This document shows, piece after piece, positions 5,704 through 63,724 of a stretch of 64,000 bases of DNA (the stretch's first letter is position 1; each line of letters starts with the position of its first letter). Source of the DNA: Alphaproteobacteria bacterium (GTDB lineage: Bacteria; Pseudomonadota; Alphaproteobacteria; Ferrovibrionales; Ferrovibrionaceae); NCBI GenBank assembly GCA_947473805.1, contig CANJGB010000001.1:1-64000 (forward strand), in the 5' to 3' direction. The notes below the pieces were generated by a model. The model was not told the origin of the DNA. It saw only the letters and a program-made list of their open reading frames with translations, and ran no database searches. The translations under genes were made by a program, and so were the position numbers.

Positions 5704-7241
5704 CGATGATCGCCACGTTCGCCGCCCGGGTCGCGGCCCTGGCGGGCTGGCGGCGGCTCGCCGTTGCGGTCCTTGCCGGGGCGGCCACCGCGTTCTCCCT
5801 GGCGCCGTTTTTCATTCTCCCGCTGCTGCTGGGCTATGCCGTGCTCGCCTGGCTGCATGAAGGCGCGGCGACGCGCCGGGCGGTGTTTGCCATCGTCTGG
5901 GCCTTTGCCTTCGGCCAGTTCGTCGCCGGCCTGTATTGGACGGGCGTCGCCTTTCTGGTCGATGCGGCGCGGTTCGCCATCCTGCTGGCGTTCCCGATCC
6001 TGGGCCTGCCGGCCGGCTTGGCACTGATTCCGGCGTTCGTCGCGGCGCTCATCTGGGTCCCCGCCCTGCGTGGCCCCGCCAGCATCCTGGTTCTGGCCGT
6101 AGCGTGGATCATTGCCGAATATGCCCGCGGCCACCTGCTGACGGGCTTTCCGTGGAACCTCATCGGCTATGTCTGGGTGGCGTTCGACGCGACGATGCAG
6201 CCGGCGGCCCTGATCGGGGTCTACGGACTTGGCCTGCTCACCGTCGCCGGTGCGGCCTCGTTCGCCCTGCTGGCCGGCCCGCGGGGCTGGCGCTGGCCGG
6301 CGGGTTTCGTTGTCCTGTTTGCGGCCATGACGGCCGACGGCTATTGGCACCTTGCCGTCACTGACTTCGCCGCCGTGCCCGGGGTGCGCCTGCGTCTGGT
6401 CCAGGCCGCGATCCAGCAGTACGAAAAGCTGAACGAGGACAACAGCAACCAGCATCTTGCCGACCAGCTCACCCTGTCGGCAAAACCTTCCGCCGCGCCG
6501 ATCACCCACCTCGTCTGGCCTGAATCGGCCATTCCGTTCTTCATCGAGTACGAGCCGAACGGCCGCGGCTTCCTGGCCAATTCGGTGCCGGCGGGCGGGC
6601 TGCTGCTGTCGGGCGCGCCGCGCCGCACGCCGCCGCAATCCGCTGACCTGAAAATCTGGAACAGCCTCATCGCCCTCGACGAGCGGGGCGAGGTGGTTGC
6701 CGCCTACGACAAGCAGCATCTGGTGCCGTTTGGCGAGTACCTGCCTTGGCGGTCGGCGCTCAGCCGCATTGGCATCGACAAGCTGGTCCCCGGCGCGCTG
6801 GACTATTCCTTTGGCCAAAGCCGGGCACCCATAGCGCTGCCCGGTCTGCCGCTGGCCCGCGTGCTGGTCTGCTACGAGGCGATCTTCCCCGACGAGATCG
6901 GGTTCGGCGGCGCGCGGCCGGGCTGGCTGCTCAACATCACCAACGACGGCTGGTTTGGCACCAGCACCGGCCCGTACCAGCACCTGGCCATGGCACGCAT
7001 GCGGGCGGTCGAGCAGGGCCTGCCGCTGGTGCGTGCCGCCAATACCGGCGTTTCCGCGATCATCGACGCGCAGGGAAGAATGGTGGCGGCCCTGGGCCTC
7101 GGCCAGCATGGTGTCGTGGATGGTCCCCTGCCGGTCGCAACCGTATCGGCGCCGCTTTACGCGCGGATAGGCGACCTTGCCGTATTACCCCTCGTTGCAT
7201 TGTTCCTGCTTGCGGCGCTTTGTCTCCGCGCCCGCCGTTGA
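5700..7241 (+). CDS. lnt: Apolipoprotein N-acyltransferase
   Basis: Lnt adds the third acyl chain to lipoproteins in the inner membrane. The 513-residue product begins with about six hydrophobic segments (1-220) and continues into a nitrilase-like periplasmic domain. The catalytic triad is recognisable: Glu275 (WPESAIPF), Lys338 (YDKQHLVPFGEY) and Cys391 (VCYEAIFPD). It starts at the ATGA overlap with corC. Confidence 0.95.
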   Translation: MTMIATFAARVAALAGWRRLAVAVLAGAATAFSLAPFFILPLLLGYAVLAWLHEGAATRRAVFAIVWAFAFGQFVAGLYWTGVAFLVDAARFAILLAFPILGLPAGLALIPAFVAALIWVPALRGPASILVLAVAWIIAEYARGHLLTGFPWNLIGYVWVAFDATMQPAALIGVYGLGLLTVAGAASFALLAGPRGWRWPAGFVVLFAAMTADGYWHLAVTDFAAVPGVRLRLVQAAIQQYEKLNEDNSNQHLADQLTLSAKPSAAPITHLVWPESAIPFFIEYEPNGRGFLANSVPAGGLLLSGAPRRTPPQSADLKIWNSLIALDERGEVVAAYDKQHLVPFGEYLPWRSALSRIGIDKLVPGALDYSFGQSRAPIALPGLPLARVLVCYEAIFPDEIGFGGARPGWLLNITNDGWFGTSTGPYQHLAMARMRAVEQGLPLVRAANTGVSAIIDAQGRMVAALGLGQHGVVDGPLPVATVSAPLYARIGDLAVLPLVALFLLAALCLRARR

Positions 7242-7293
7242 CGTCGCTGCCCGCAAGGTCTACACGCGCAACAGGCAGCCGTTGGGGGAAGCC

Positions 7294-7734
7294 GTGGGGG
7301 CCAGTCGTAATCCCGTCGATGTCTTCGTCGGCGCACGTCTTCGGTTAAGGCGCACCATTGCGGGATTCAGCCAGCAAAAGCTGGGCGAAACCGTCAACCT
7401 GACGTTTCAGCAGATTCAGAAATATGAAAAAGGCGCAAACCGTGTCAGCGCCAGCCGCATGTTCCAGTTCGCCCACGTCCTGGGCGTCTCGCCGGCCTAC
7501 TTCTTCGAGGGGATCGAACTGTATCTGGGGCCACAGGGCGCGGCTGCAGCTTTGCCGGGCTTCGCCGAAACACCCGATGCCTACGAGGCCGGGCCGGCCA
7601 AGCCGGATGTGGTGTTTAACCGCGAATCACTCGAACTGATGCGCGCCTTTGCGCGGATCTCGACACCAGAGGTACGCCAGCGCCTGTTCGAGCTGGTAAA
7701 GGCGGTCGCCGAGGCCGAAAACCCGATGACCTGA
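7294..7734 (+). CDS. XRE-family helix-turn-helix regulator
   Basis: The 146-residue protein contains one N-terminal HTH_3 domain (about residues 10-68; SQQKLGETVNLTFQQIQKYE). A hydrophobic stretch and a C-terminal helix (RQRLFELVKAVAEAE) follow. The same type of gene sits between lnt and metK in many alphaproteobacteria, so it belongs to the core cluster. Its target is unknown to me. GTG at 7294 is chosen because GGGGGA lies about five bases before it and the domain starts soon after; TTG at 7282 is an alternative. Confidence 0.85.
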   Translation: MGASRNPVDVFVGARLRLRRTIAGFSQQKLGETVNLTFQQIQKYEKGANRVSASRMFQFAHVLGVSPAYFFEGIELYLGPQGAAAALPGFAETPDAYEAGPAKPDVVFNRESLELMRAFARISTPEVRQRLFELVKAVAEAENPMT

Positions 7735-7753
7735 TCCGTTCCTACTGAACGGA
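7735..7753. terminator. Hairpin between convergent genes
   Basis: TCCGTTC-CTACT-GAACGGA forms a perfect 7-bp stem with a 5-base loop, exactly between the XRE regulator and the opposing small gene, whose stop codon lies in the loop. There is no T-run, so it is at best a weak two-way transcription end. Confidence 0.3.
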
Positions 7754-7933
7754 CCGAAGGGCGCGCCACGCGGTGTTACGCAGGCCCTGCTGGTCGGCAA
7801 GCGGGTTGAGGGCCAAGTTTCGCACGATGGGCGACAGCGCATCAACGCGGCGCCGCAGTTCGGCATTTTCACAGCGCAGACGCTCAAGTTCATTGCCGCT
7901 CGCCAGACGCTCGGTGGTGAACATCTTGTCCAT
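7742..7933 (-). CDS. Small predicted coiled-coil protein (63 aa)
   Basis: I do not recognise a family. The 63-residue product has a heptad-like middle (NELERLRCENAELRRRVDAL) typical of a short coiled coil. It ends in a basic tail. The ATG at 7933 is strongly supported by AAGGAG about six bases upstream; the longer in-frame extension to 8038 overlaps the preceding small gene and ignores this site. It is the second gene of a two-gene unit with the 58-residue gene, 10 bases apart, both downstream of the histidine kinase on the same strand. Confidence 0.65.
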   Translation of the reverse strand: MDKMFTTERLASGNELERLRCENAELRRRVDALSPIVRNLALNPLADQQGLRNTAWRALRSVQ

Positions 7934-7943
7934 GACGAACTCC

Positions 7944-8120
7944 TTACTGCGCGTTTGCGTATGCCGCGGTCTCGGCTGCCGGGGCGTGCAGCGCCTCGAA
8001 GCTGCGGAAGCGCGGCACGTCGTTCGAATCTTCGCCACGGTTCAGTTCATCAATGACGTTGCGCCGGTACTCCGGGTCGAAGATCACGCGGTCAAGATCG
8101 ATGTTGGTGCCGAGGGCCAT
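7944..8120 (-). CDS. Small acidic protein of unknown function (58 aa)
   Basis: This short reading frame starts at ATG 8120 after CAGGAGG with near-ideal spacing and ends with TAA at 7944-7946. The peptide starts MALGTNIDLDRVIFDPEYRR and ends AYANAQ. It is soluble and acidic, with no membrane segment. I know no family for it. Placement ten bases before the coiled-coil gene, each with its own strong ribosome site, argues that both are translated. Confidence 0.6.
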   Translation of the reverse strand: MALGTNIDLDRVIFDPEYRRNVIDELNRGEDSNDVPRFRSFEALHAPAAETAAYANAQ

Positions 8121-8234
8121 GCCGTCCTCCTGAAGTCACAGGGTCAACGGCAAGTCTAGGTAGGGGTTGCATTAACAGCCCGAAACAAAGTCGGGACCGG
8201 CGGTGACATTCCTGTGATGCGCCCGTGACCGCCG

Positions 8235-55166: not shown

Positions 55167-55256
55167 GGACAGGTGGCCGAGTGGTTGAAGGCACCGCACT
55201 CGAAATGCGGCGTACCTTTACGGGTACCGTGAGTTCGAATCTCACCCTGTCCGCCA
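55167..55256 (+). tRNA. tRNA-Ser (anticodon CGA)
   Basis: A 90-base class II tRNA folds with acceptor GGACAGG/CCTGTCC, D-arm TGGCCGAGTGG and anticodon stem CCGCA/TGCGG, with CGA at 55201-55203. It has a long variable arm (GTACC...GGTAC), T-arm GAGTTCGAATCTC, discriminator G and encoded CCA. It reads UCG. Accessory DNA starts right after it. Confidence 0.95.
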
Positions 55257-58829: not shown

Positions 58830-59792
58830 ATGCGCGCGTTGATCCTGAAGTCTTTGCTGGTTGCCGGCTTGTTCGGGGCGGCTGGCGCCCACGCCCAGTC
58901 AACGGCTTTTCCGGGCGCCAAGCCCATTTCCTTTGTCATCCCCTTCGCCGCGGGCGGCTCTACTGACACACTGGGTCGCCAGTTCGCTACACGGCTAGGT
59001 ACAGCGCTTGCCACCAATGTCATCGTCGAAAACCGTACAGGCGGTTCCGGTACGGTGGGCGGCGCCTACGTCGCAGCTGCTCCCGCTGATGGCTATACCG
59101 TGCTCCTAGGCGTCGATACATCGATCCTAACCCGCCACCTTGAAGGGCTGAAGTACGACGGTGAAAGAGACTTCAAGCCGCTTGGCATGATTGCCATCAC
59201 TCCGGTGTCAATTGCCGCCGGGCCGCAGGTGCCGGTGCAGAGTTTCCGGGAGCTTGTGGCACTGGTTCGGGCCAATCCGGGCAAGTTCGACTATGGCACA
59301 TCCGGCGTCGGTGGCACCGCACACCTGATTGGCTCGATGCTGAAGCGCGATGGGGGTATGGACATGGTCCACGTGCCTTACAAGAGCGGTTCTCAGGCGA
59401 TCCAGGATATTCTTGGTGGACGCGTGCCATTGGTCATAACGGCGCCAATTTCCGTCTCGCAAACACCGCAAATCCGTGTACTTGCCGTATTCACCGATAC
59501 GCGGATCCCGACGCTGCCTAACGTCCCCACCGCAAAGGAGGAGGGCGTTCCAATCGCAATCAGCTCGGTGTTCGGCGTCTTCGCCCCGGCGGCGACACCT
59601 CAACCTGTCGTCAATACGCTCAACCAGGCTATCGCCAAGGTAGCGATGGACGAAGGGTTCCGTGCGGAGATTAGCAAAGGTGGTTTCGTGCCGGCGACTG
59701 ATCCGAGCGTCGCACACCTAGCCAAGCTTGTAGCCGAGGGCAATGCGAACATGGAGGCTGCGTTCAAGTCACTTGGAATTAAGCCGGAGTAG
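58830..59792 (+). CDS. Bug/TctC-type solute-binding protein
   Basis: The 320-residue receptor has a signal peptide (1-22, ...GAHAQS) and family motifs ISFVIPFAAGGSTDTLGR, PADGYTVLLG, GTSGVGGTAHL and LPNVPTAKEEG. GGGAGG lies ahead of the ATG. It opens the second catabolic module. Codon use begins to drift toward A/T here. Confidence 0.9.
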   Translation: MRALILKSLLVAGLFGAAGAHAQSTAFPGAKPISFVIPFAAGGSTDTLGRQFATRLGTALATNVIVENRTGGSGTVGGAYVAAAPADGYTVLLGVDTSILTRHLEGLKYDGERDFKPLGMIAITPVSIAAGPQVPVQSFRELVALVRANPGKFDYGTSGVGGTAHLIGSMLKRDGGMDMVHVPYKSGSQAIQDILGGRVPLVITAPISVSQTPQIRVLAVFTDTRIPTLPNVPTAKEEGVPIAISSVFGVFAPAATPQPVVNTLNQAIAKVAMDEGFRAEISKGGFVPATDPSVAHLAKLVAEGNANMEAAFKSLGIKPE

Positions 59793-60036
59793 CAATACCG
59801 ATGGTCACGATGCACCTCGTTTCATCGGTCGGGCGGTGGCTCGTTGGCTAAGTTCCCGGTGCACACCCTCTTCACAAGCGTTGGCGAATCTCGCGTATAG
59901 CTGCGCAACATCAAAGCAGGGATTAGGCAGTATGGCAGGGGCGTTAACATCAATGGCTGCCCTGGCACAAACGCTGTCCGCCGAAATGACCAACGTTAGC
60001 TGAGTGGCCATTCGAGACTGGGACTGAATCAATTAG

Positions 60037-60867
60037 ATGCGCATTGATATTGTTGTTCCAAATCAAGGAGCCGACGCGGTTAAGGCCATTAGAGCTGGCC
60101 CACTATTGGAAAAAATGGGCTTCGCCGGGCTGTGGCTAACTGATCACGTCATCGGTGCGGATGAGTATCGACACTATGGCGGCCAGTGGATGGAGATACT
60201 GTCCGCGCTCGCTTTTCTAGCTTCATCGACCTCGAGGGTTCGTCTCGGGACCGGAATTTTGGTGTTGCCCTATCGAAATCCGGTTCTTACGGCAAAGATG
60301 ATCGCCACGATCGACCAGCTGAGTGGCGGCCGAGTCGATCTCGGAGTTGGAACGGGCTACGCGCGAACCGAATTCGAAGCGCTCGGAGTTGGTCCTCTTC
60401 ATGAGGAACGCGGACGTGTGACTGATGAGTGCCTGGACGTAATAAAGAAGTGTTGGGCCGGCGGTGCCGTGGCAGCAAGCGGGTCCAGATTCTCGTTCGA
60501 TGCCGTAGAGTTCTCCCCACAACCGGCTCAGAATCCGTCAGTCCCGATTTGGGTTGGATCTCGCGGAGTGGGGCGCCTTCCGCTTCGACGCGCAGCACAA
60601 TATGGCGACTACTGGCATCCAGTTCGAGTAACCCCCGAGGAGCTGATCGACGCCTCAAATTTCATCGACGATCTGGCTGGCCGACGAGTGCGCCGAAGCG
60701 CGCGTTTAGTTTTCGGCCAAGCGAAGCCGACAGAAGCTGTTGTAGAGGCAATTGAGAGCTACCGAGCTGCGGGGTGTGAGCAGGTCGCTATCGACTTTAG
60801 GTGTGAATCGCTGAGCATATATCTGAAGCTGGCCGAGCAGTTAAGCATGAGGCTAATGTTGGTCTAG
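60037..60867 (+). CDS. LLM-class flavin/F420-dependent oxidoreductase
   Basis: The 276-residue TIM-barrel protein has LLM signatures: FAGLWLTDHV, STSRVRLGTGILVLPYRNPV, SGGRVDLGVGTGY and VPIWVGSRG. The F420-type LLM group is the nearest match, though FMN cannot be excluded. The codons are AT-richer than the core genes (ATT, AAT, TTA common), suggesting transfer. Confidence 0.87.
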   Translation: MRIDIVVPNQGADAVKAIRAGPLLEKMGFAGLWLTDHVIGADEYRHYGGQWMEILSALAFLASSTSRVRLGTGILVLPYRNPVLTAKMIATIDQLSGGRVDLGVGTGYARTEFEALGVGPLHEERGRVTDECLDVIKKCWAGGAVAASGSRFSFDAVEFSPQPAQNPSVPIWVGSRGVGRLPLRRAAQYGDYWHPVRVTPEELIDASNFIDDLAGRRVRRSARLVFGQAKPTEAVVEAIESYRAAGCEQVAIDFRCESLSIYLKLAEQLSMRLMLV

Positions 60868-60984
60868 GCTCAACTATTCTTCCAAAAGCTGGAAAAGTAT
60901 TGTTACGAAAACTGGCCTTCTCCTGCTCCTTCAATGGTGAAAACCTGTGTTCAATGCGGGGACATACCGCGCGGGAGGAAATTC

Positions 60985-61905
60985 ATGGCAATGCAGGGGG
61001 TGGCAGCTGCGGGCCAATCTGGTATTGCGGCGCAACATAACGTTCAGGCCGATTTCGACGCGGTTGCGCTGTCATGGCGGACGGGCTCGGAGATTCGTGG
61101 CCTTGACCTTCGTGACGCCGCCTCGATTTCTGACAATTCAATTAAGCGGCTCCGCGGTCTACTTGCAGAACGCGGCGTTCTTCTCTTCCGGGATCAACAC
61201 CTAGATCACGACCAACACCTAGATTTCACGCGTCGCTTCGGACCCTTGGCGGAGGCCGGCTTCATTTCGCGAAACGCCCCACCAGGGTACCCAGATCTTT
61301 TCACGGTCACCAATATGGTGCTGGAAGGCGAACGTTCCGAAACTTGGGATTCCGCGCGTCAGTGGCATTCTGACCAGTCGTTTCTGCCCGTTCCTGCGAC
61401 AGGTTCCCTACTGCGGTGCGTGCGTGCGCCGCAGCTCGGGGGGGATACGATGTTTGCCAACCTTTTTGTTGCCGCTGAACGCCTCTCGGAGGGTCTGCGG
61501 GCGACCCTCGAAAATTTGCGCTGCTATCACGACCTCTACAACACCAATAACCGTCAGCGATTGCGGCGCAAGGAATTCACGCCCGAAGAGGCGAAGAAAT
61601 GGCCAGGAACCTGGCATCCGGTACTGAAGCCTCATCCCCTAACCGGAGAAAAGGCTCTGTTCGTCAGTGAGCAGATGATCGATCGCTTCGAGGGATGGAC
61701 CATCGAGGAGAGCGCCCCGCTATTGCAGTATCTAGTACGATACGCGACTCAGCCGGCGTTCACCTACCGTCACCATTGGCGTCCAGGCGACCTAATATTC
61801 TGGGACAATCATTGTACATTGCACCACGCGCCGCCCGACTACGACGTTTCAGCGCTTGATGCGCCGGAGAACGTGCGACTGATGTACCGGTCAACCCTGG
61901 CGTAG
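60985..61905 (+). CDS. TauD/TfdA-family dioxygenase, HxD type
   Basis: The 306-residue enzyme carries the Fe(II) triad with WHSD (His128/Asp130) and a distal His in LHHAPPDYD. The late Arg for 2-oxoglutarate is in RLMYRSTLA. It is closer to classical TauD/TfdA than the HxE enzyme at 24460. ATG 60985 has GGGAGG at ideal spacing; the frame upstream to 60934 is not needed. The aldolase follows after eight bases. Confidence 0.9.
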   Translation: MAMQGVAAAGQSGIAAQHNVQADFDAVALSWRTGSEIRGLDLRDAASISDNSIKRLRGLLAERGVLLFRDQHLDHDQHLDFTRRFGPLAEAGFISRNAPPGYPDLFTVTNMVLEGERSETWDSARQWHSDQSFLPVPATGSLLRCVRAPQLGGDTMFANLFVAAERLSEGLRATLENLRCYHDLYNTNNRQRLRRKEFTPEEAKKWPGTWHPVLKPHPLTGEKALFVSEQMIDRFEGWTIEESAPLLQYLVRYATQPAFTYRHHWRPGDLIFWDNHCTLHHAPPDYDVSALDAPENVRLMYRSTLA

Positions 61906-61913
61906 GGGGCAAT

Positions 61914-62720
61914 ATGAGCGGTGGTACGGTACGGCTTGCGCAATCCTCGGCGAATGCGGCGGGTCGGTTCAGTGAGACGGAATGGCAGGCGAGAACCGAC
62001 CTTGCGGCGTGCTATCAGCTGGCGGACATGTATGGCATGTCAGACCTTGCAGGGACGCACATTTCAGCGCGAGTTCCCGGAAAGGAAGGCCAGTTCCTTC
62101 TCAATCGTTTCGGCACGTTGTTCGACGAAGTGACGGCATCGTCTCTGGTTAAGCTCGACGTAGAAGGCAGGGTAATAGACGACGATCCGGATATGCCTGT
62201 AAATCGCGCGGCTTTTGTGATTCACAGCGCAATTCACATGGCGTTCCCGGAAATCCTATGTGTGATGCATACACACACGAGGGCAAATAATGCGATCGCT
62301 ATGCAGAAGGACGGCCTTCTGCCCCTTCATCAAAAGGCGATAACCCTGCTGGATTTCGTTCGTCGTCATGAATTCGAGGGAGCCGCCCTTGACCTCGACG
62401 AACGGGACAGGCTGGTTCGGGATCTCGGCCCTGAAGGCCGCATCCTGATTCTCGACAACCATGGGGCGATGACAGTCGGCAAAAACGCTGCCGAGGCGTT
62501 TACGTGGATGTATCGCTTCGAGACGGCGTGCCGATTTCAGGTGGATGGACTTGCTGGCGGGCGTGAACTGATTTGGCCGTCTGACGGGATGATCGCCCAC
62601 ACCCGTGCACAAGGGCGCAAGATATTCGGTCCGGGCGGTTTCTTTCAGCCTGGGATGCTTGAGTGGCCTGCCTTGTTGCGAAAGCTTGAGCGCGACCGAG
62701 GCACTTCGTACAGGACGTAA
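61914..62720 (+). CDS. Class II aldolase/adducin-family protein
   Basis: The 268-residue protein is a clear paralogue of the one at 23534: GTHISARVPG, MHTHTRANNAIAMQKDGLLPLHQ and NHGAMTVGKNAAEAFTWMY align throughout. Zinc would be bound by the HTH pair and the NHG His. GGGGGC precedes the ATG. It is co-transcribed with the oxygenase upstream and the receptor downstream. Confidence 0.9.
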   Translation: MSGGTVRLAQSSANAAGRFSETEWQARTDLAACYQLADMYGMSDLAGTHISARVPGKEGQFLLNRFGTLFDEVTASSLVKLDVEGRVIDDDPDMPVNRAAFVIHSAIHMAFPEILCVMHTHTRANNAIAMQKDGLLPLHQKAITLLDFVRRHEFEGAALDLDERDRLVRDLGPEGRILILDNHGAMTVGKNAAEAFTWMYRFETACRFQVDGLAGGRELIWPSDGMIAHTRAQGRKIFGPGGFFQPGMLEWPALLRKLERDRGTSYRT

Positions 62721-62755
62721 ATCGTCGAGGGTCGAGAAGACCCAAGGGAGGGAAA

Positions 62756-63724
62756 ATGATTAAAAAAGCCGGAGTTCTACTGGCCACCGTTTCTTTGCTT
62801 GTCGGCTTTGGCGTGCAAGCCCAAGACTATCCAACGAAGCCAATCAGAATCATAACGCCTAACCCGCCGGGCGGCGCAACAGATCCGGTCGCGCGCGCTC
62901 TCGCTCAGTACATGACGACCAAGTTAGGGCAGCAGGTCATCGTAGAGGCTAAGCCCGGCGCCGCAGGATCCGTAGCTGTGGACTACGTCATGAAGCAATC
63001 CGCTCCTGACGGTTACACAATCCTTCTGCACACAACAAACGTCACAATAAACCAAGTGTTCAAAAAGGACATTGGCTACGACGTGCGAAAGGATTTTCAG
63101 CCGATTATTGAAGCGGTGTTTAGCCCATTCCTAGTTTCCGTCAACGCCGAGGCGAAATTTAAGACGCTGCCAGAGATGGTGGCCTTTGCGAAAGCCAATC
63201 CCGGGGCCCTGAACTATGGGTCTTCGGGTATCGGAAGCACGAACCATGTTCCGATGGAAGTCTTCGCCCTGCAGAACAACATCAAAATGACGCACATCCC
63301 CTTTCAGGGCGGCGGCCCGACAATCGTTGCCCTGCTTGGCAAGCAGATCGACTTAACCTTGGATCCGGCGAGCAATTCCAAGAAGCAAATAGACGCGGGT
63401 AAATTTCGCGGTCTGGCGATAACCGATACAAAGCGCTCTGCTCTATTGCCAGACGTCCCAACAGTTACTGAAACTGGCCTGCCGACGTTTGTATCGGGAT
63501 TTTTCGTCGGCCTGTCGGCGCCGGCGGCAACGCCGGGCAAGATCGTGCAGACCCTGAACGCGTCAATGAACGAAGCGCTGGCCATGCCAGAGGTACGGCA
63601 AAACCTTGAGGCTCTTGGCTTTGCGATCCGAGGCGGTACATCAGCGGCTTTTGCGCAGCTAATGGCGAAAGAAGTAGAGCAGTGGACCGAGGTCAGTAAA
63701 AAGGTCGACATTAAGATGGAGTAA
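62756..63724 (+). CDS. Bug/TctC-type solute-binding protein
   Basis: The 322-residue receptor has a signal peptide (1-22, ...GVQAQD) and motifs IRIITPNPPGGATDPVAR, PDGYTILLHT, YGSSGIGSTNHV and LLPDVPTVTETGL. AAGGGAGG precedes the ATG. It is the second receptor of the module and is distinct from the one at 58830. Confidence 0.92.
   Translation: MIKKAGVLLATVSLLVGFGVQAQDYPTKPIRIITPNPPGGATDPVARALAQYMTTKLGQQVIVEAKPGAAGSVAVDYVMKQSAPDGYTILLHTTNVTINQVFKKDIGYDVRKDFQPIIEAVFSPFLVSVNAEAKFKTLPEMVAFAKANPGALNYGSSGIGSTNHVPMEVFALQNNIKMTHIPFQGGGPTIVALLGKQIDLTLDPASNSKKQIDAGKFRGLAITDTKRSALLPDVPTVTETGLPTFVSGFFVGLSAPAATPGKIVQTLNASMNEALAMPEVRQNLEALGFAIRGGTSAAFAQLMAKEVEQWTEVSKKVDIKME

Follow-up and report, generated by a model that had tools for sequence, protein, structure and literature searches.

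A recurrent short motif in a tiny protein encoded beside an alphaproteobacterial two-component system, and its possible role as an accessory of that system

Small proteins that tune two-component signalling have been described in a few model bacteria. In the stretch of DNA analysed here (64,000 nucleotides at the start of contig CANJGB010000001.1 of the alphaproteobacterial assembly GCA_947473805.1, family Ferrovibrionaceae; hereafter the window), the genes encoding a response regulator (RR) and a sensor histidine kinase (HK) are followed by two very small open reading frames, ORF1 and ORF2. Are these frames genes, do they belong to a family, and is the neighbouring two-component system what they act on? 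The order on the minus strand is RR, HK, a gap of 114 bases, ORF1, 10 bases and ORF2 (Table 1). The C-terminal winged helix of the RR lies just under the Pfam cut-off (23.6 vs. 26.2 bits). The original prediction had described a unit of two genes of 58 and 63 residues, ten bases apart, on the strand of the kinase operon and opposite an XRE regulator. Coordinates, lengths and gap all proved exact, and the pair is indeed located downstream of the RR-HK genes on the minus strand, convergent with the XRE gene.

Table 1. Position of the two small genes, of their signals and of their neighbours in the window
Feature	Position	Strand	Remarks
ORF1, 58 aa	7944..8120	-	Acidic; motif at residues 6-29 (NIDLDRVIFDPEYRRNVIDELNRG), then low-confidence tail
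ORF1 stretch matched by the motif model	8031..8102	-	Helix 9-14, kink, helix 16-29 (AlphaFold2 model)
ORF2, 63 aa	7742..7933	-	Basic; heptad-like leucine/charged stretch; orphan
Shine-Dalgarno sequence of ORF1, AGGAGG	8126..8131	-	
Shine-Dalgarno sequence of ORF2, AAGGAG	7940..7945	-	Overlaps the ORF1 stop codon
Gap between kinase and ORF1, 114 bases	8121..8234	-	
Sensor histidine kinase (HK), 510 aa	8235..9767	-	HisKA and HATPase_c above Pfam cut-off, HAMP below
Response regulator (RR), 246 aa	9730..10470	-	Receiver domain above Pfam cut-off; overlaps kinase start
XRE-family regulator	7177..7734	+	Convergent with ORF2; start codon not settled; outside the unit

Both frames are probably real genes. 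Each is preceded by a Shine-Dalgarno (SD) match of six bases, in line with the strong ribosome sites that had been predicted, and matches of at least six bases precede only 9 of the 1820 ATGs in the window. The codon score reaches 0.389 for ORF1 and 0.193 for ORF2; when the 22 training genes are themselves cut into windows of 58 codons, the score is 0.34 ± 0.26. The 136 ORFs with lengths of 50-80 aa, ORF1 among them, have a mean score of -0.51; ORF1 has the top score of this set, and that of ORF2 is reached by ORF1 and one other ORF. When a different set of 13 genes is used for training, ORF1 scores 0.437 and ORF2 0.130. The part added by a longer reading of ORF2 from an upstream GTG then scores -0.753, in favour of the ATG at 7933 as its start. 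One of the two proteins had been expected to be acidic, and this is the case of ORF1 (pI 4.5), the pI of ORF2 being 10.5. The mean hydropathy is similar (GRAVY -0.57 and -0.60, respectively), and no transmembrane segment was found in either, as judged from the sequences and from this mean hydropathy.

ORF1 has no significant match in Pfam, NCBIfam, PHROGs or PADLOC. Its best library matches are transposase models, all sub-threshold (Pfam, 13.3 bits, E 0.036; NCBIfam, 12.6 bits, E 0.025; PHROGs, 12.8 bits, E 0.038), and PADLOC returned nothing. One could read them as the trace of a Tn3-type transposase, ORF1 being a fragment of such a gene, or else take both frames for chance ORFs, but the likelihood of this is next to negligible: the matches span only 25-29 residues and are far below the cut-offs of 24 bits (Pfam) and 500 (NCBIfam), and the SDs, the codon usage and the selection on the motif described below argue against it.

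We then considered how the small genes might be expressed. Simple scans of the gap between the kinase and ORF1 detected neither a sigma-70-like promoter nor a terminator, so that co-transcription of ORF1 with the kinase is possible. The RNA fold of this gap is not more stable than that of shuffled sequences (z 0.77). Since the SD of ORF2 overlaps the stop codon of ORF1, the translation of the two genes may also be coupled, and this overlap of signals suggests a partnership between their products. Directly after the kinase stop codon, the gap contains a 10-base inverted repeat (8198-8207/8225-8234; CGGCGGTGAC/GTGACCGCCG) with 17 bases between its arms; from its sequence, the segment 8198-8234 is a possible operator or regulator binding site.

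Elsewhere in the window, a run of genes at 58830-63724 displays a lower third-position GC than many other genes (0.56-0.67 vs. 0.8-0.9). These genes encode two TctC receptors, a luciferase-like monooxygenase, a TauD-type dioxygenase and a class II aldolase, and a tRNA-Ser gene is found at 55167, a few kb before the run, which is possibly acquired DNA.

The original prediction recognised no known family in either protein. This stands as far as named families are concerned, but ORF1 is not isolated: it sits in an unnamed family whose 24-residue motif, IDL[DE]RVVxDPxYRRxVIxxL, recurs in other genomes. Only profiles revealed this family, single-sequence searches having found little. With ORF1 as query, 3 of the 96 genomes gave a match, its own included, the two others holding short ORFs that share the IDLDRVxxDPxYRR stretch; plasmids gave none, and the two weak matches in phages (E 0.8) were both records of one phage. 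Pattern searches confirmed 0 of 207 stretches in genome contigs and 0 of 30 in viral contigs. In contrast with these searches, a first profile (five rows, three genomes) matched 22 of 289 genomes of the class at E<=0.01, 20 of them not represented in the profile, the weakest matches being doubtful. A 25-row profile matched 27 of 385 alphaproteobacterial genomes at E<=1e-3, a count that is not independent because the rows came from earlier matches. As a control, a column-permuted profile gave 0 of 385 at E<=1e-3 and one match at 0.0039; built from the 25-residue core of each of these 25 rows, it has 25 positions vs. 38 and is a somewhat weaker test. When a related 22-row profile was run against a 299-genome sample of the phylum, the window's own genome was the sole match; since all the listed genomes of this sample belong to Alphaproteobacteria, the search does not serve as a clean outgroup comparison.

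The motif family is scattered through Alphaproteobacteria. From 278 pattern stretches in named records, 16 loci were confirmed, all 16 in metagenome assemblies, with record titles naming Rhodospirillaceae, Rhodovibrionaceae, Caenispirillum, Rhizobium and unclassified Alphaproteobacteria. An absence of conservation in relatives had been named as evidence against the original prediction; such an absence is seen inside the window's order, where the motif occurs in 1 of 18 genomes, its own, and not across the class. Four other matches were set aside as likely due to chance: those of G071 (an ankyrin protein), G137 (an XRE protein) and G181, with E 0.001-0.008 for the first profile and absent from the matches of the 25-row profile, and that of G334 (E 0.0022). 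A search of the PDB with the profile of the motif family gave a best E of 0.75. Among the papers listed in the literature searched on small proteins of Alphaproteobacteria and on small-protein partners of two-component systems, none named the motif, which is no proof of its being undescribed.

Within the family, D8, D15, Y18, R19 and L26 (ORF1 numbering) are invariant in 27 aligned rows and R11 is nearly so; alignment A4 excludes the L142 row. By its motif, ORF1 itself qualifies as a member of this DRVxxDPxYRR family. The motif is near the N-terminus in some proteins and C-terminal in others, and outside it no conservation is visible among the family proteins. The AlphaFold2 model of ORF1 breaks at Asp-Pro between its two helices (pLDDT block means of 94 and 82), and the tail is at 51-55, so that about 25 residues of the model are confident. 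Purifying selection acts on the motif protein in these short ORFs. For the motif, the pooled pN/pS is 0.14 when four copies linked to the kinase are compared and 0.21 for three copies linked to cysD; the other in-register motif pairs gave 0.58 (the weak one), 0.14 and 0.34, and ORF1 compared with two close relatives gave 0.31 and 0.31. These ratios are rough because synonymous differences are large in many pairs.

Conservation of the two genes as a pair was not supported, since the genomes, loci, plasmids and phages examined yielded no usable homologue of ORF2: none in 95 other genomes, 69 other loci and plasmids, and three weak matches only in phages (E 0.04-0.3). Three Pfam matches to other families are all under cut-off. 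The sequence pattern of ORF2 appears coiled-coil-like, and the gene is probably young or fast-changing. Its best PDB match, TPR/kinesin-light-chain-like (E 1.6e-4), contains no stretch that passes alone and was read as helix composition. Two adjoining tiny genes, one acidic and one basic, could also form a type II toxin-antitoxin pair. We consider this extremely unlikely, since neither protein matches a toxin or antitoxin family in Pfam, NCBIfam, PHROGs or PADLOC (a toxin-antitoxin role had likewise been judged not to be indicated), ORF2 is not conserved with ORF1, and the motif recurs in fixed, housekeeping-like contexts.

We then investigated the link between the motif genes and the two-component system. 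The proposed tie to the kinase operon was borne out: homologous RR-HK genes are followed by a motif gene in five other genomes (G211, G286, G322, G323 and G326), all of genus g180, with 48-50% identity to the window's RR and 39-41% to its HK. In addition, the kinase and the motif gene are separated in 5 out of 5 of these cases by another tiny gene, unrelated to ORF2, whose 55-aa product is hydrophobic in its N-terminal half. An arrangement of a kinase gene followed by two tiny genes, one of them with the motif, thus recurs outside the window's order. The motif proteins of g180 end in the motif and have 62 aa in three genomes, 65 in G211 and 33 in G286 (altered frames). The two tiny frames overlap by four bases at L128, L129 and L130, and are apart at L080 (G211). 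No match to the motif was obtained in 4 of the 9 g180 genomes examined (three 69-72% complete, one 96%). As for the intervening 55-aa gene (L130:6047-6211, minus strand; equivalents at L080, L083, L128 and L129), its pooled pN/pS is 0.09 in three copies and no Pfam match exceeds the cut-off; its product is a candidate for a second small regulator. In the window, no gene of this hydrophobic type was seen.

All five kinase-linked cases outside the window belong to one genus. Among 30 loci of kinase homologues scanned with flanks of up to 1500 bases, the window's own family included (two further kinase matches had no locus), the motif was found in the window's own only, the next match being at E 0.45. 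Conversely, a homologue of the kinase at E<=1e-30 was found in only 8 of the 23 other motif-bearing genomes tested, and most motif genes are not beside this two-component system. Taken together, the 29 other kinase loci without the motif and this proportion of 8 out of 23 indicate that the system does not require the motif and that the motif is not restricted to the system, and the latter proportion that the module has uses without the kinase.

A second type of association is found in G140. Here the motif stands at the start of a 190-aa protein and is followed by a winged helix with 56% identity to the window's RR. The motif was detected at E 2e-4 with the first profile, which excluded G140. 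When the fusion was compared with 59 genomes, its 11 best matches elsewhere were regulators beside kinase homologues, nine at 52-61% identity and two longer alignments at 39 and 45%, vs. 25-39% for other regulators. At E<=1e-30, G140 yielded no homologue of the kinase (assembly 93% complete), an absence that is not certain because the assembly consists of 410 contigs. In the model of the fusion, both parts are visible with no confident contact between them (motif block means of 67-73, linker below 50). The occurrence of the fusion in a genome that yielded no kinase homologue points towards the regulator side of the system.

We therefore put forward, tentatively and with a probability of about 0.45, that ORF1 is a small cytoplasmic protein serving as an accessory to the two-component system encoded directly upstream, acting through a docking module, with ORF2 as a lineage-specific partner. 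The module would be a portable unit of 24 residues, made of a short helix, an Asp-Pro kink and a longer helix with a Tyr-Arg-Arg face, and the tail that follows is probably disordered. It would have been recruited at least two times to the two-component system, and fused once to its output domain. As the module is found either separate with the system or fused to the DNA-binding domain of the regulator, it most likely acts on the regulator or output side rather than on the sensor domain. It might hold or assemble the DNA-binding domain, or bridge it to another factor, and an adaptor role for ORF1 is plausible. ORF2 would be a coiled-coil-like partner produced from the same message.

To what extent do the other motif genes agree with this proposal? 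Their contexts were recorded with a marker-protein neighbour test in 38 loci, among which G114, G385 and G423 (E 1e-6 to 5e-4 with the 25-row profile) were kept, and in 16 named loci, which share several contigs with the 38. A divergent MFS transporter at 198-442 bases was found in 9 of the 38 and 4 of the 16 loci, i.e. 13 different contigs (L066, L069, L073, L075, L078, L081, L086, L131, L142, L176, L179, L185 and L188), and at 8 of these 13 (5 and 3, respectively) CutA faces the motif gene within 200 bases. A class-III aminotransferase gene is located upstream on the other strand in 5 of the 38 loci, at 256-2302 bases, and cysD downstream on the same strand in 4, three of these with a CFA synthase gene divergent upstream. 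A homologue of the window's kinase lies upstream on the same strand in 5 of the 38. In G410, a PAS-type kinase is encoded 162 bases upstream of the motif gene on the same strand; in its sister G101, no such kinase adjoins the motif gene. The remaining 14 loci, the G140 fusion among them, have other neighbours or none of those tested, and G114, G385, G423, L071, L079, L085 and L087 showed none of the tested contexts. Several MFS-context loci are also near a Cys/Met-type PLP enzyme, this MFS context being the commonest seen in the family, and at L067:6320-6671 (G098) two tandem motif ORFs about 200 bases apart lie upstream of an amidohydrolase-like gene.

From this distribution, it is a serious possibility, somewhat short of an even chance, that motif proteins are general small regulators which all share a single binding partner in the cell (polymerase, protease, or a factor associated with RNA or with the membrane); adjacency to a two-component system would then be one context among others and uninformative on the system. 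The 13 MFS-divergent loci with their eight facing CutA genes, the cysD and aminotransferase loci and the finding of the kinase in only 8 of the 23 motif-bearing genomes tested all speak for it. However, the RR-HK linkage in a second lineage, together with a fusion to the DNA-binding domain of the same RR, is hard to obtain by chance: assuming about 40 motif loci and about 3,500 genes per genome, the rough expectation is about 0.01 such cases, the window being left out of this estimate because the search started there. A broader version of the two-component proposal would make the module a portable input for transcription output across uncultured Alphaproteobacteria. In this version, a separate tiny protein would join an OmpR-type regulator, the module in G140 would replace receiver domain and kinase to give a phosphorylation-independent DNA-binding domain, and the MFS and cysD contexts would be served as well. 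We regard this broader version as rather unlikely.

Action on the kinase was the other alternative considered. Receiver helix alpha1 docks on kinases, and the Asp-Pro-x-Tyr-Arg helix of ORF1 could mimic it and serve as a decoy on the dimerisation domain. When the starts of receivers were scored with the motif model, that of L195 reached 12.1 bits, above all 1179 scored shuffles (maximum 6.7), two more regulators reached 3.1 bits (99th percentile of the shuffles, 1.6), and 8 of the 38 scored regulators exceeded the 95th percentile (-0.3). Against these cases, the median of the scored regulators hardly differs from that of the shuffles (-3.2 vs. -3.4), 19 of the 57 regulators were not scored, and the window's RR is outside the 12 best. 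Moreover, profile-profile comparison with hhalign gave a probability of 1.4%, and not at the REC start, and the module is present in G140, where no kinase homologue was found. Such mimicry is thus very unlikely. The receiver start of L195 itself (G280; DDDPDYREAVIGEL, in the frame from near 659, plus strand) is motif-like, and those of most regulators are not.

If ORF1 is an accessory acting on the regulator side, as we propose, it would represent a separate, unnamed family with a compact motif and possibly a new type of accessory for sensor systems. The fusion and the set contexts make its partner directly testable. For annotators, the motif offers a handle on tiny genes that are missed by the family libraries searched here.

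Finally, we compared the locus with known systems. The best NCBIfam relatives of the window's kinase are of the ChvG type (120.5 bits) and the CreC type (119.2 bits), yet both scores are far under the curated cut-offs (740 and 356, respectively), and the two-component system is therefore assigned to neither. ORF1 was also compared with the Pfam model of DUF1127 (PF06568), and no match was obtained at an E limit of 10. Among small modulators, MgrB and SafA (47 and 65 aa) modulate PhoQ, the sensor kinase of PhoQ/PhoP; MgrB is an inner-membrane protein, and the two act on the periplasmic part of PhoQ (PMC12501420). ORF1 is similarly small, but it has no hydrophobic stretch. According to the same source, small DUF1127 proteins (the SDPs of A. 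tumefaciens and YjiS of E. coli) bind the sensor kinase PhoR, the family is widely distributed among bacteria, and one member is also reported to bind RNA (PMC12501420). The likeness to ORF1 lies in the tiny size, the possibility of several copies per genome, the arginines predicted to lie on helices and the reported action on two-component systems (PMC12501420), whereas the motif, the acidity and the gene contexts of ORF1 differ. Judged by sequence, ORF1 stands outside DUF1127, and the pairing of DUF1127 proteins with PhoR is its closest working analogue.
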